A stretch of DNA of 64,000 nt. Source: Thermoplasmatota archaeon. GTDB lineage: Archaea > Thermoplasmatota > Penumbrarchaeia > JASLWR01. The translations under genes were made by a program, and so were the position numbers. The notes under the pieces are model-generated. The model did no database searches, had not been told where the DNA came from, and saw only the letters and a list, made by a program, of their open reading frames with translations. Location: NCBI GenBank assembly GCA_030740765.1, contig JASLWR010000006.1, positions 1 to 64,000 of the forward strand, read 5' to 3'. Numbering within the stretch: position 1 is the stretch's first letter; each line of letters starts with the position of its first letter. This document shows positions 39,317-56,594 of the stretch, piece by piece.

Positions 39317-39475
39317 CTTGCCCGCTCCTGATGTATGGACATACATCTGTATTTGCGGGGACGTTACCCCGCAAACAGGGTGCGGTCAAGTCTCGACAAA
39401 AAGTCGAGGTTTGCAGCTTGGTAATCCTCGACAAATCAGAGATTTGCCTGGCATGACAGGGCGTGACCTGTCATA
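39317..39475. repeat. Hairpin-rich repeat element, copy D, hairpin array
   Basis: Five perfect hairpins in tandem directly after a stop codon. 39330-39347: GATGTATG / CATACATC, loop GA. 39352-39375: TTTGCGGGG / CCCCGCAAA, loop ACGTTA. 39392-39408: CTCGAC / GTCGAG, loop AAAAA. 39432-39446: CAAATC / GATTTG, loop AGA. 39453-39474: ATGACAGG / CCTGTCAT, loop GCGTGA. The fourth shares the core AATYRGAGATT with copies A and B while its outer arms differ. None is followed by a clear T tract, so simple transcription termination does not explain five in a row. Confidence 0.65.
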
Positions 39476-48316: not shown

Positions 48317-49597
48317 ATGGCAAGAAAAGGTATACGTGAATACGATGCGAAGCGTTTGCTGGCAAATGGACTCCCTCGAATATCAGAGGGACGATTTGAA
48401 ATGAACCTTGATCGGGTTCTCATCACCCCGGATACTGATCTTTCAACGCTGGATGAGGAACATTCGTGGCTGAATAAGACGCCTCTGGTTGTAAAACCGG
48501 ACCAGCTGTTCGGAAAGAGAGGGAAGAACAAGCTTCTCATTCTCGATGCAACTCTGGAAGAGGCCATAGCGTGGGTCAATGAAAGAATGAACTTAGAGAC
48601 AACCATAGTTCAGACGACAGGTACAACTACCGGGGTCTTAACCCATTTCCTGGTAGAGCCGTTCATATCCCACGAAAGCGAATACTATGTCGCCATAGTC
48701 CAGAAGGAAAATGGGGACGTGATCTATTTTTCCACCCAGGGAGGCGTGGACATTGAGGCAGTATGGGATTCTGTGATCACAATAGAGGTCCCGACTACTT
48801 CTTCCATAGATAATATCGATATCGAAAGCGCACTTTCTGACGTACCGGAAAGATCCCTGGTGGCAGGTTTCATAAAAGTTCTATACAGGGTATTCGACCA
48901 GTACTATTTTACCTACCTGGAGCTAAATCCGTTCTCCTTTGCAGATGGAAAGATAGTGATACTGGACACCGTGGCCAAGCTGGATGACACAGCTTCATTC
49001 GAGTGTTCGGAACTCTGGGGGAAAATAATGTTCCCAAAAGCCTTTGGAGCTGTAAAGAGCCCCGAGGAAGGTTACGTGGCTCAGCTTGACGAGAGAACGG
49101 GAGCTTCACTGAAACTGACCATCTTGAACCCGGACGGGATAGTGTGGAATCTGGTTGCCGGAGGAGGTGCAAGTGTCATCTATGCCGATACCGTGGTGGA
49201 CCTGGGCTACAGCAAGGAACTGGCCAATTACGGAGAATACAGCGGGAATCCGTCAATGGAGCTTACCTATGAATATACAAAAACTGTTCTCAAGCTCATG
49301 ACACGACAAAAAGACCAGCAGGGACGCCCGAAATATCTTCTGATAGGCGGCGGTATCGCCAATTTCACTGATGTTGCCAAGACCTTTACCGGCATAATCC
49401 GGGCAATAGAGGACTACCAGGATAAATTGAAGGAGATAGGTGTTAAAATATACGTGCGCAGAGGCGGTCCGAACTACAAGGAAGGACTGGAGAACATGAA
49501 GAACCTCGGGCGCAGGATCGGTATACCCATCGAGGTCCACGGACCCGAGACACATATGACCAGGATCGTGTCTCTTGCTCTAAAGGGAGGTGAATGA
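48317..49597 (+). CDS. aclB: ATP-citrate lyase, ATP-grasp (small) subunit
   Basis: A 426-residue subunit of ATP-citrate lyase, which with CoA and ATP cleaves citrate to acetyl-CoA and oxaloacetate. It begins with the ATP-grasp domain (IREYDAKRLLANGLP; TPLVVKPDQLFGKRGKNKLL gives the ATP-lysine region; LELNPFSF near residue 203 supplies metal ligands) and ends with a succinyl-CoA-synthetase-like domain (VAGGGASVIYADTVVDLGY, about 278-300, and LIGGGIANFTDVAKTF). Length matches the split plant and green-sulfur-bacterial type. Naming differs: plants call this subunit ACLA, Chlorobium AclB. The stop overlaps the ribosome binding region of the next gene, so the two are coupled. Confidence 0.9.
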   Translation: MARKGIREYDAKRLLANGLPRISEGRFEMNLDRVLITPDTDLSTLDEEHSWLNKTPLVVKPDQLFGKRGKNKLLILDATLEEAIAWVNERMNLETTIVQTTGTTTGVLTHFLVEPFISHESEYYVAIVQKENGDVIYFSTQGGVDIEAVWDSVITIEVPTTSSIDNIDIESALSDVPERSLVAGFIKVLYRVFDQYYFTYLELNPFSFADGKIVILDTVAKLDDTASFECSELWGKIMFPKAFGAVKSPEEGYVAQLDERTGASLKLTILNPDGIVWNLVAGGGASVIYADTVVDLGYSKELANYGEYSGNPSMELTYEYTKTVLKLMTRQKDQQGRPKYLLIGGGIANFTDVAKTFTGIIRAIEDYQDKLKEIGVKIYVRRGGPNYKEGLENMKNLGRRIGIPIEVHGPETHMTRIVSLALKGGE

Positions 49598-49598
49598 T

Positions 49599-51446
49599 AT
49601 GGAAGAATACGAACTGTTCAGCCGGGATACGCAGGCATTCATCTACGGCGGCCAATTAAGAGCAGCGCAGAGAATGCTGGATTTCGATTATGTTTGCCGG
49701 AAGGAGAGGCCATCGGTTGTGGGGATAATCACACCTGAACGAGGAGGTTGGGAAAAATTCTTCTGGGGTACCTCCGAGATAAGGATTTTGAGATACAGAA
49801 GCATTCCCGAGGCTGTAAAAGCACACCCGTCAGCAGACGTTATGATAAACTTCGCTTCAGAGAGATCCTCCTTCGAGACCACAAAAGAGGCCCTTATGAT
49901 CGATAATATCCGTACTGTGGTAATGATCGCCGAGGGGGTTCCCGAGAAACGAACGCGAGAACTCAGAGCCATAGCGACCGAGGGAGGCAAATGGATCATC
50001 GGACCATCGACGGTGGGCGGGATCAAGGCGGGGGCGTTCAAGATAGGGAATTCCGGAGGCACCATCGACAATATAAAGGCATCAAAGCTTTATCGGCCCG
50101 GATCAGTTGGATTCGTATCCGTGTCAGGTGGTCTGTCGAACGAGGGTTTCAATATTCTGGCCAGGAACACGGACGGGATATACGAGGGCTACGCCATCGG
50201 TGGAGACGCCTATCCCGGCTCAACGCTTCTTGAGCATCTTCTGAGGTATGAAAAGAATCCCAAGATCAAGATGGTGGTCTCACTGGGCGAGCTGGGGGGA
50301 ACTGCGGAGCTGGAGATCGCGGAAGCGGTCAGTAATGGGAAAATCACAAAACCGCTGGTTATGTGGGTGACCGGTACTTGCGCGAAAATGCTGCCACAGG
50401 GAGTCCAGTTCGGCCATGCAGGGGCAAAGGCCGATTCGGATAGAGAGACCGCACAGTACAAAAATCAAGCCTTGAGGGATGCCGGGGTAATTGTGCCGGA
50501 GTCCTTCGACGATTACGACGAAAAGATAAGGGAGACCTTCGATGATCTGAAGTCCAAAGGCATCATTGAGCCCGTGGACGAATTCACACCACCCCACATA
50601 CCCATGGACTATGCCCAGGCGAAGGCCGAGGGACTGGTGAGAAAATCCACGAATTTCGTCACCACCATCTGCGATGAGACCGGCGACATACACGACTACT
50701 GCGGGGTTTCCATAGACAAGGTGATAAAGGAGAATTACGGCATAGGCGGGGTTCTGGGCCTCATATGGTTCAAGAAGAAACTACCTCGGTACGCATGCGA
50801 TTTCCTTGAGATGGTGATACAGATCGTGGCCGACCACGGACCGGCGGTATCCGGGGCCCACAACACTATCGTTACTGCAAGAGCCGGAAAGGGATTGATC
50901 GAATCTATCATAAGCGGCATGGTGACCATCGGCCCCCGCTTCGGCGGAGCGGTGAACGGTGCTGCGGAGCACTTCCGGTGGGGATTGGCGCAGGGGTACG
51001 CTCCAAGAGAGTTCGTGGTGGCAATGAAGGCCAAGAACACCAACATACAGGGGATCGGCCACCGGATACACACGGTGGAATTTCCCGATCTAAGGGTGGA
51101 TATAATGGTCGATTTCGCCAAGAAGAATTTTGCCAAGACCCCGATTCTCGATTTCGCACTGGCTGTGCAGGCTGTTACGACGCAGAAGAAGAATAATCTC
51201 ATACTGAACGTGGACGGGTGTATTGGCGTGCTGTGCGTGGATCTGCTTAACAGCCTCGGTTATCCGGATGACGAGATAGGGAAAATGATAGACATGGGAT
51301 TCTTCAACGCCCTGTTCATCATAGGCAGGACCATGGGATTCATGGGTCATTATTTCGACCAGAAACGACTTGAATCGAGACTGTACCGCCACCCGTGGGA
51401 CGATATTTTGTATGATGTACCGGATGAACCGGAAGAGGTCGAGTAG
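49599..51446 (+). CDS. aclA: ATP-citrate lyase, CoA-ligase/citryl-CoA lyase (large) subunit
   Basis: A 615-residue partner subunit. The N-terminal CoA-binding and ligase part (about residues 1-330) includes G-F-V-S-V-S-G-G-L-S-N-E and the phosphohistidine loop G-H-A-G-A (VQFGHAGAKADS, about 270-281). The C-terminal citrate-synthase-like domain (about 350-610) has G-A-H-N-T-I-V (about 426), P-R-F-G-G-A-V-N-G-A and I-Q-G-I-G-H-R-I, the citryl-CoA cleavage site. Length agrees with family members of about 608 residues. The ATG at 49599 follows GGAGGTGA by five bases; the GTG at 49590 lies within that site. The pair could run in either a reductive TCA direction or, as in eukaryotes, for acetyl-CoA supply. 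No other TCA genes are in the window. Confidence 0.92.
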   Translation: MEEYELFSRDTQAFIYGGQLRAAQRMLDFDYVCRKERPSVVGIITPERGGWEKFFWGTSEIRILRYRSIPEAVKAHPSADVMINFASERSSFETTKEALMIDNIRTVVMIAEGVPEKRTRELRAIATEGGKWIIGPSTVGGIKAGAFKIGNSGGTIDNIKASKLYRPGSVGFVSVSGGLSNEGFNILARNTDGIYEGYAIGGDAYPGSTLLEHLLRYEKNPKIKMVVSLGELGGTAELEIAEAVSNGKITKPLVMWVTGTCAKMLPQGVQFGHAGAKADSDRETAQYKNQALRDAGVIVPESFDDYDEKIRETFDDLKSKGIIEPVDEFTPPHIPMDYAQAKAEGLVRKSTNFVTTICDETGDIHDYCGVSIDKVIKENYGIGGVLGLIWFKKKLPRYACDFLEMVIQIVADHGPAVSGAHNTIVTARAGKGLIESIISGMVTIGPRFGGAVNGAAEHFRWGLAQGYAPREFVVAMKAKNTNIQGIGHRIHTVEFPDLRVDIMVDFAKKNFAKTPILDFALAVQAVTTQKKNNLILNVDGCIGVLCVDLLNSLGYPDDEIGKMIDMGFFNALFIIGRTMGFMGHYFDQKRLESRLYRHPWDDILYDVPDEPEEVE

Positions 51447-51513
51447 GGGACAATAAATTTCCGAAATTTGTTCTCTTCGATCTAAAGAGGGCCTGCGGCC
51501 ATAGGGCGAACGC

Positions 51514-52378
51514 GTGTGCCGGGCATGTGGAGAGACTTGACAATGAAAGTTTGTTCAGGACCCTGGCAGGGGGAACCTGTAGGCGAAGACAACTGCAACA
51601 TCGTGAGGTGTTGTGGGAAGGCAGTCGTAGCCAAAGCCATGGCCCGAGGAACACGAATCGCATTAGGCTATGATGTCTGGACGAATCTGCGCGTGAAGAC
51701 GAAGTCCGATACCTGCTCGGAAGACATCAGGGTATATGCGGCGGGCGTGTGGCGAAGGTCTCTTCACTTACCCCGGGAGGTCTGTATATGTGACATGTTG
51801 TCTATGCTTTCCGGCAACGGTTAGCAGATGCATATGCAGAAGTCAGCAAAGGTCATAGTAGCAGCCTGGGATTCAGCAAAATCGGTCTCTTCGAACTGCG
51901 ATTTTGCGAACGTTGTCAAGCTGCAAACTTCGATTTTTTTCGAACTTTGCACCATTGACAACATGCAGCTGCGAAGGACCGAACAGAATGTGAAGTTCTC
52001 CACCTGGAGAGTTTGGAGGAATATATTGCTGCAGAAGAGCTTGTAAGACTATTGCGCTGACAGCTTCCTTTTCGGAAATGATGGCCGGAAGTCATTCATT
52101 CCCGGAACGGAGCAGAGAACTCCTTCAGCACTCCCAGTGTATGACGGAGACACGAACCAGTCGCTGCTGGAAAAGACTCTGTTTCTTGACAAGTCACCAC
52201 TTGTCCAGTGTGACACGCCATCAGGTGTGTCTTTTCCTAACAATCCAACAGGTTGTTGAGTTTTCACCATGTGGTGTGATAGACAGGTTTCGTCGCACAC
52301 GTTCTGAACCGCTGTATACGGACCCGTACGTACGGTGGTGTGGGAGGCGGGATGCCGTGAGGCTCCCGCCTACCCGAT
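51514..52378 (+). mobile_element. Group II intron without reverse transcriptase ORF
   Basis: An 865-base group II intron recognised from RNA landmarks. The 5' end GTGTG fits the GUGYG consensus. Domain I features include GAAGACAACTGC, GAGGTGTTGTGGGAAGG and GAACACGAATCGCATTAGGC, then CCCCGGGAGGTCTG and AGAAGTCAGCAAAGGTCATA just before domain IV. Domain V lies at 52306-52339 (GAACCGCTGTATACGG, then CCGTACGTACGGTGGT). Domain VI has the stem GGCGGGA / TCCCGCC (52346-52370) and ends CTACCCGAT with a candidate branch A at 52372. Domain IV (about 51850-52300) has no reverse transcriptase or maturase frame, so splicing or mobility would need a protein in trans. It lies 67 bases after the citrate lyase stop, just behind a GGCC/GGCC hairpin, in non-coding DNA. 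Class not determined. Confidence 0.85.
52187..52206. repeat. Hairpin repeat fragment inside intron domain IV
   Basis: The 20 bases TGACAAGTCACCACTTGTCC are an exact inverted match to 23180-23199 in repeat copy B. Here they open a small series of hairpins: GACACGCC / GGTGTGTC (52212-52231), CAACA / TGTTG (about 52246-52258) and an imperfect TCACCA / TGGTGTGA. This suggests that a hairpin-rich element was inserted into domain IV, or that both derive from one source. Confidence 0.55.
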
Positions 52379-52456
52379 AGGTCCTATTTAAGAGGAAGGA
52401 AGAGATCAAAGATATTTCATTTCCCTAACCCATAAAATTTATTAAACACGAAGTCC

Positions 52457-55902: not shown

Positions 55903-56223
55903 TCAATATTCTCTCCACCGGTGATTGCATTCGGCACAGATGTAGAATCTCGTCGTGGGTTCATCAGCTGCACGGGTCTGTCTTAAAAACCACTTTGCCT
56001 TATCATGCCCGCATTCGGGACATTCCTGATCCACAGTAGGAAGAGTCCCCAGATCTTTTTCGAAAATCTTGAATTCCTTTTCAACGCTGGGCGTGGAGAT
56101 AATATTTGTACCTCCATCCGCTTTGATCTTATAACCACAACTGCTATTCCTACATACCATGATGCCGGGTTCGTCTTTACTGGGAAACATAAGGGACTTG
56201 CATTCCGGACAGAACATAACCAT
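55903..56223 (-). CDS. tfs: Transcription factor S (TFIIS-like)
   Basis: A 106-residue archaeal transcript-cleavage factor, which binds RNA polymerase and rescues backtracked complexes by stimulating RNA cleavage. It has an N-terminal zinc ribbon (residues about 5-30, CPECKSLMFP and CRNSSCGYK) and a C-terminal TFIIS-type ribbon (about 68-106, CPECGHDKA and CAECNHRWREY). The catalytic acidic pair D-E is present in QTRAADEPTTRFYICAECN. Length is standard. I chose the ATG at 56223 because GGTG lies seven bases before it; ATG 56217 is a second possibility. Confidence 0.92.
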   Translation of the reverse strand: MVMFCPECKSLMFPSKDEPGIMVCRNSSCGYKIKADGGTNIISTPSVEKEFKIFEKDLGTLPTVDQECPECGHDKAKWFLRQTRAADEPTTRFYICAECNHRWREY

Positions 56224-56594
56224 TGAAAAACACCTTTTCGCTTTAGGCTGGAGAACTGCGAACACATTAATATATTTTACTTAAGTGTTCGGAAGTCTAT
56301 TGGGATAGAACCCAATAATCGTTTTGATGATCGCCTGGTTAAAAAAAAGGAGTCACAGTTTTGTTAGGTCAATTACAGTTCCCTCGAATAGCAATAAGCT
56401 CGAATGAGATTGAAAAAAACCACTCCTTAAAACCCTTTCCACATCCCAATCCGACCTATCTGGTAAAAACACATTCTTCAGAGTATTATTTTGTCTCAAG
56501 TTCGCCTAAAAGGTAGAAAGTTTAAATTATCCCAAAGGAGTTATCTGATTAGTGCTGGTTAGTCGTTAAATAAATACTCACACGGTCGATAATA
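56224..56594. other. Intergenic region with divergent promoters
   Basis: About 370 AT-rich bases between tfs (minus) and the protease gene (plus). A TATA-like TTAAATAAATA near 56565-56575 would serve a leaderless protease transcript. No open frame, RNA gene or long repeat is apparent. Confidence 0.4.

Follow-up and report, generated by a model that had tools for sequence, protein, structure and literature searches.

An archaeal group IIC intron without reverse transcriptase inserted in the 3' arm of its target hairpin

Group IIC introns which insert at transcription terminators are exemplified by B.h.I1 (Robart et al. 2007, as cited in passages of PMC4424553 and PMC3898094), and the mechanism by which IIC introns recognise hairpins is called unknown in PMC3898094. 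The intron described here, which lies in a window of 64,000 nucleotides (the whole stretch of Thermoplasmatota DNA that was analysed), shares with these introns the GTGTG 5' end, the CGC triad in domain V (D5), a short EBS1/IBS1 pairing, a hairpin as target and an intergenic site. It differs from them in lacking a reverse transcriptase (RT) and in having entered the hairpin within its 3' arm, with IBS1 in the stem and the 3' exon completing the hairpin. Among 118 loci of named genomes, mostly bacterial with few exceptions, which share this 5' end, the 3' end of the hairpin most often precedes the intron by 5-7 nt. Group IIC-attC introns resemble the present intron in that the stem-loop is entered and not only followed (PMC7923331), but their target is attC with TTGT/T, whereas here it is a CCTGCG/CGCAGG hairpin.

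The TeI3 introns of Thermosynechococcus elongatus are likewise multi-copy and ORF-less, with EBS fitted to different targets and a presumed driver acting in trans (PMC2882425). In contrast to the present family, which belongs to IIC, has no recognisable ORF remnant and for which no driver was found, they are IIB introns which retain clear ORF remnants and share their genome with driver RTs. In bacteria, introns without an ORF are rare and almost always reside beside a related RT, C.te.I1 of Clostridium tetani being the exception (PMC4424553). In archaea, according to sections of PMC8919778, group II introns include class C, and Thermoplasmatota are among the carriers (15% of genomes). An earlier sequence-only reading of the locus had remarked that group II introns are uncommon in archaea, which is true but not new, as these sections already record class C introns as well as Thermoplasmatota carriers; the introns they describe do not include multi-copy members that lack an ORF and have a recurrent hairpin as target. 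Precedents exist separately for introns without an ORF, for IIC introns that target hairpins and for class-C introns in archaea. Their combination is a modest novelty, the kind of intron being ordinary and the set of its features unusual.

Architecture, class and relatives of the intron

Positions 51514-52378 of the + strand constitute a complete group II intron RNA of 865 nt without an RT. Three models match this segment in an Rfam cmscan, in order and all on the + strand:

51597-51765, + strand: core of domain I (D1); RF02001 (group-II-D1D4-3), 123.6 bits, E 6.2e-25
51803-51872, + strand: D2/D3 and start of D4; RF01998, 35.9 bits (cut-off 35)
52307-52378, + strand: domains V/VI; RF00029, 44.8 bits (cut-off 40)
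52308-52339, + strand: domain V, from RF00029, the fold and pair-preserving changes
52310-52312, + strand: catalytic triad CGC of D5, from the sequence
52341-52376, + strand: domain VI (D6) with the unpaired A52372 as likely branch point, from the fold and an alignment of five sequences

The sequence-only reading had recognised a group II intron by its GTGTG 5' end, domain V and domain VI/3' end. The ends it gave are exact, and the Infernal search with the Rfam group II models, which it had named as a check, found D1, D2/D3 and D5/D6. Domains I-VI are present with a conserved D1 core and D5/D6, while the assignment of D2-D4 comes from the RF01998 match and the fold only. The intron begins with GTGTGCC at 51514, and D6 and the 3' end read ...CCTACCCGAT up to 52378. 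Both boundaries are corroborated by sister copies in the same genome, of which C109 and C127 display the identical start GTGTGCCGGGCATG, and C103 and C13 the identical end CCTACCCGAT. D5/D6 folds at -43.9 kcal/mol (z -5.6 compared to shuffles), and comparison of the window copy with C103, C13 and two relatives reveals two-sided, pair-keeping changes at 5 of the 28 D5/D6 pairs.

The ribozyme belongs to group IIC and is, among the introns compared, nearest to other archaeal ones. This assignment is based on the CGC triad of D5, which is named as the typical IIC form (PMC7923331), on the short EBS1/IBS1 pairing, which at 4 bp in the window copy is within the 3-4 bp of IIC introns, and on the GsI-IIC-like RT encoded by the nearest RT-bearing archaeal introns. 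A hairpin at the target site is present as in other IIC introns, although the position inside its arm departs from the usual one. A class C RT in domain IV, a trait of the autonomous members and not of the ribozyme class, is lacking; since membership is carried by the ribozyme and not by the RT, we file the element as an ORF-less IIC derivative.

A survey of 389 genomes of the phylum yielded RF02001 matches in 13 and RVT_1 matches in 39. The closest complete RT-bearing introns are those of G210 and G162 (74-82% identity in D1 and D5/6), and among solved structures the G210 RT is closest to the GsI-IIC RT (E 9e-144). The best bacterial loci from a pattern scan match in D5/D6 only, or weakly. 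The best plasmid matches in blastn are limited to the general D5/D6 of bacterial introns, and scanning IMG/VR with the D1 sequence gave no match. Related archaea hold two more group II introns, L079 (G076:C100) and L084 (G087:C33), which span about 520 and 700 nt from end to end, respectively, and are apparently ORF-less as well; one of them comes from a genome in the class of the host, and that genome has an RT on another contig (L080). At L072 (G046:C232, positions 1-390, - strand) the 5' end of a related intron directly follows a hairpin, itself downstream of a tRNA gene that seems to contain an intron of its own, and the EBS1 of L072 does not fit its IBS1. The G210 genome harbours five RT matches; at L069 (G210:C72) a stretch of less than 4 kb contains two RTs which differ in type, each near group II intron domains.

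Target hairpin and exon recognition

The features of the insertion site and the elements pairing with it are as follows:

48317-51446, + strand: ATP-citrate-lyase-like gene pair, with the intron in its 3' UTR (NCBIfam matches, all below cut-offs)
51489-51497, + strand: 5' arm of the hairpin in the 5' exon, GGGCCTGCG; pairs with 51511-51513 plus 52379-52384 after exon joining
51510-51513, + strand: IBS1 ACGC, final 4 nt of the 5' exon and partly inner 3' arm of the hairpin; fully complementary to EBS1
51691-51694, + strand: EBS1 GCGU, D1 loop positions 3-6; register set by RF02001 alignments
51717, + strand: candidate EBS3 U with a potential pair to A52379 at exon position +1
52379-52384, + strand: AGGTCC of the 3' exon, which supplies the hairpin's outer 3' arm, from the sequence; pairs with 51489-51494

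The intron had been described as lying in an untranslated region after an archaeal ATP-citrate lyase operon, in agreement with the sub-cut-off matches of the upstream gene pair. Its members resemble the two halves of ATP-citrate lyase, one being succinate-CoA-ligase-beta-like and the other succinate-CoA-ligase-alpha plus citryl-CoA-lyase-like; a transcription factor S gene (55906-56265) identifies the contig as archaeal. The site had further been attributed to the sort used by terminator-targeting introns, which is borne out inasmuch as a hairpin target is typical of group IIC. The intron does not, however, reside just behind a GGCC/GGCC hairpin as proposed, but interrupts the 3' arm of a longer one (GGGCCTGCG...CGC-intron-AGGTCC), which would refold once the exons are joined. 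The joined exons form a 9-bp stem, GGGCCTGCG/CGCAGGTCC, with a single G-U pair (-22.6 kcal/mol, z -4.4); the 5' exon alone folds at -12.1 kcal/mol (z -0.2). The GGCC-TGC-GGCC hairpin was rejected as target since the other copies lack it but share CCTGCG/CGCAG. An upstream hairpin, GTTCTCTT/AAGAGGGC, which ends 21 nt before the intron, was set aside as it is absent from the other copies.

In C109 and C127 the 5' exons end in GGCCTGCG-loop-CGCAG, and in C103 and C13 the 3' exons are GTCC and GCCC(TTTTT). Put together, with no fixed assignment of 5' halves to 3' halves, these exons would build a stem that is perfect or nearly so, its 3' arm being the place of the intron. The insertion point in the window (CGC/AGGTCC) is 2 nt off that of the sisters, and EBS1 is altered accordingly. 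The pattern CCTGCG-N3-25-CGCAGG occurs at 9 sites of the genome compared to 1 for the reversed control, and two of these sites, C109 and C127, are occupied by introns. Four more of the 9 sites are empty hairpins of similar form, in C65, C92, C96 and C152, the one in C65 being identical over 22 nt to the occupied C109 site; the outer stem GGGCC/GGCCC is not fully kept in C152 and C96. Since the looser pattern GGCCTG...CAGGYC shows no enrichment (9 sites versus 8 for the control), the target family is defined by the CCTGCG/CGCAGG core only.

EBS1 and IBS1 covary between the copies, reading GCGU/ACGC in the window and CUGU(G)/(C)GCAG in C109 and C127. Different pairs are also found in the kin (UGAC/GTCA in G210a, AUGG/CCAT in G162, AUGA/TCAT in G210b and AAUG/CATT in G306). 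Seven of 11 copies attain 7-8 of 8 points in this pairing, while in the remaining four (G075, G383, G371 and G046) the fit is poorer or absent. Summed over the 11 copies the matched pairs reach 71, compared to 18-34 for other registers of the loop, which leaves a single working register. None of 200,000 permutations with shuffled partners reached this value (maximum 69), a result which, the copies being related, does not translate into a formal probability. The candidate EBS3/+1 pair is U/A in the window, C with G in the sisters and A/U in G162, G306 and G075; in G210a it is mismatched (A/C).

Missing reverse transcriptase, sister copies and domain IV repeats

No ORF longer than 102 aa is present in 51514-52378. 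A tblastn comparison of domain IV with the translations of 13 ORFs at kin loci, of which that from L068 is not the RT, returned no match to the relatives' RTs beyond noise and no recognisable ORF remnant, in line with the initial description of domain IV as free of an RT. The search of the genome for a related maturase, suggested in the same reading, came back empty: in the whole 3.59 Mb MAG (158 contigs, 93.7% complete) neither the RVT_1 profile (PF00078) nor tblastn with the nearest kin RT found a match, including any RT fragment at contig ends. The MAG contains five more fragments of the intron family, each of them cut at a contig end, which makes the window copy, internal to a 91-kb contig, one of at least three copies. 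Since all other copies run into contig ends and an RT-bearing one could be lost in assembly, the absence of the RT is evidence and not proof. The C73 copy (L015, C73:49569-49922) is devoid of D1, being 5'-truncated at about intron position 293, which may be the outcome of incomplete reverse transcription or of a chimeric contig. L015 follows a coding region, opens abruptly with D2/D3 and continues to the contig end; it also holds a further inverted repeat relative.

Domain IV of the window copy accommodates two repeats:

51873-51964, + strand: repA, a 92-bp dispersed double-hairpin repeat with AT repeated on either side; absent from the C109 and C73 introns
52182-52238, + strand: repB, a second dispersed palindromic repeat, present in every intron copy covering it

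The empty site of repA, CTGGGATGCAGC, is seen in C109 and C73, and the insertion is unique to the window copy, where it is placed in the loop of a D4 hairpin whose flanking stem GCAGC/GCTGC is preserved. About 30 related places of ~90 bp exist in the genome, and many of them are bounded by AT on either side. The repA family is also found at 39388-39420 of the window, at L021-L028 and elsewhere, the intron providing an empty/filled pair for one copy. Outside introns repB occurs at about 8 places, at most of which it lies in frame within an ORF and is read as the peptide LDKSPLVQxDTPSGVS. It is present (CTTGACAAGTCACCACTTGTCCAGTGTGACACGCCATCAGGTGTGTCT) in several unrelated ORFs (L016, L017, L018, L019, L020, L029 and L030) and resembles Rickettsia palindromic elements, but in an archaeon.

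Proposed mechanism and alternative explanations

We consider it probable that the intron is a non-autonomous group IIC retroelement which is spliced and mobilised in trans. Its RNA would be transcribed together with the ATP-citrate-lyase-like mRNA, and splicing would be assisted by the RT/maturase of an RT-bearing relative, acting in trans, which the assembly has lost or lacks. Splicing is predicted to join GGGCCUGCG...CGC to AGGUCC, giving ligated exons which read ...GGGCGAACGCAGGTCCTATTT, and the hairpin would re-form at the mRNA end; as splicing would thereby restore the hairpin, the insertion presumably does little harm. The released RNP would reverse-splice into further hairpins of like kind and be copied there by reverse transcription. 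Domain IV, freed of its ORF, would gather self-folding palindromic repeats while the ribozyme core stays unbroken. That reverse transcription took place at some time is implied by the existence of three or more copies which differ in their EBS1/IBS1 pairs, together with one truncated copy.

Whether, within this trans-driven explanation, the RT is now in the cell and escapes the assembly through breakage of short-read contigs at the intron repeats appears evenly balanced. Five of the six intron copies end at a contig end in a MAG of 158 contigs, and three genomes of the host's class, G009, G020 and G076, bear RTs; against this, no contig end yielded an RT fragment.

A less likely explanation, albeit a serious one, considers the copies as dead relics from the time of an RT since lost, the intron neither splicing nor moving any longer. 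It accords with the lack of an RT in a genome that is 93.7% complete and with the truncation of the C73 sister. In addition, all three Rfam models give the window copy a lower score than the sister copies (123.6 versus 132.7, 35.9 versus 57.7-65.3 and 44.8 versus 45.2-49.4 bits), the sisters scoring 57.7 and 65.3 with RF01998 being free of the 92-bp insert, and two pairs of the window copy are weakened: in D5 a U-G replaces a C-G, and the base of the EBS1 hairpin contains an A.C mismatch. These scores and weakened pairs indicate that the window copy may be decaying, and the repeat inserted in D4 points in the same direction. Yet its core, D5 and D6 are intact, EBS1 still fits IBS1, the repeat sits in a loop with the flanking stem kept, and D5/D6 pairs have changed on both sides among copies and relatives.

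Ribozymes of group IIC are compact, and some of them can self-splice in vitro. This, together with the absence of an RT by both profile and tblastn, would suit an independent intron which, like C.te.I1, self-splices without any protein. We regard this as improbable, given that multiple copies with differing EBS1/IBS1 pairs and a truncated copy imply past reverse transcription, and an RT-bearing copy could be missing where all other copies lie at contig ends. A chance match or an assembly artefact, for which nothing but the MAG origin speaks, can practically be dismissed, as three independent Rfam models are ordered on one strand inside a 91-kb contig and sister copies agree at both intron ends.

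A bolder reading, to which we assign only a slight likelihood, would be an archaeal IIC family that has lost every RT of its own, continues to splice and is specialised for a single intergenic hairpin via insertion into its 3' arm; splicing might then act as a switch by which the hairpin at the mRNA end is either restored or withheld. A multi-copy archaeal family of ORF-less IIC introns, with EBS1 re-matched from copy to copy and a hairpin that splicing would rebuild, provides a natural case for studying the origin of dependence on a maturase acting in trans, and equally for asking how IIC introns read hairpins.
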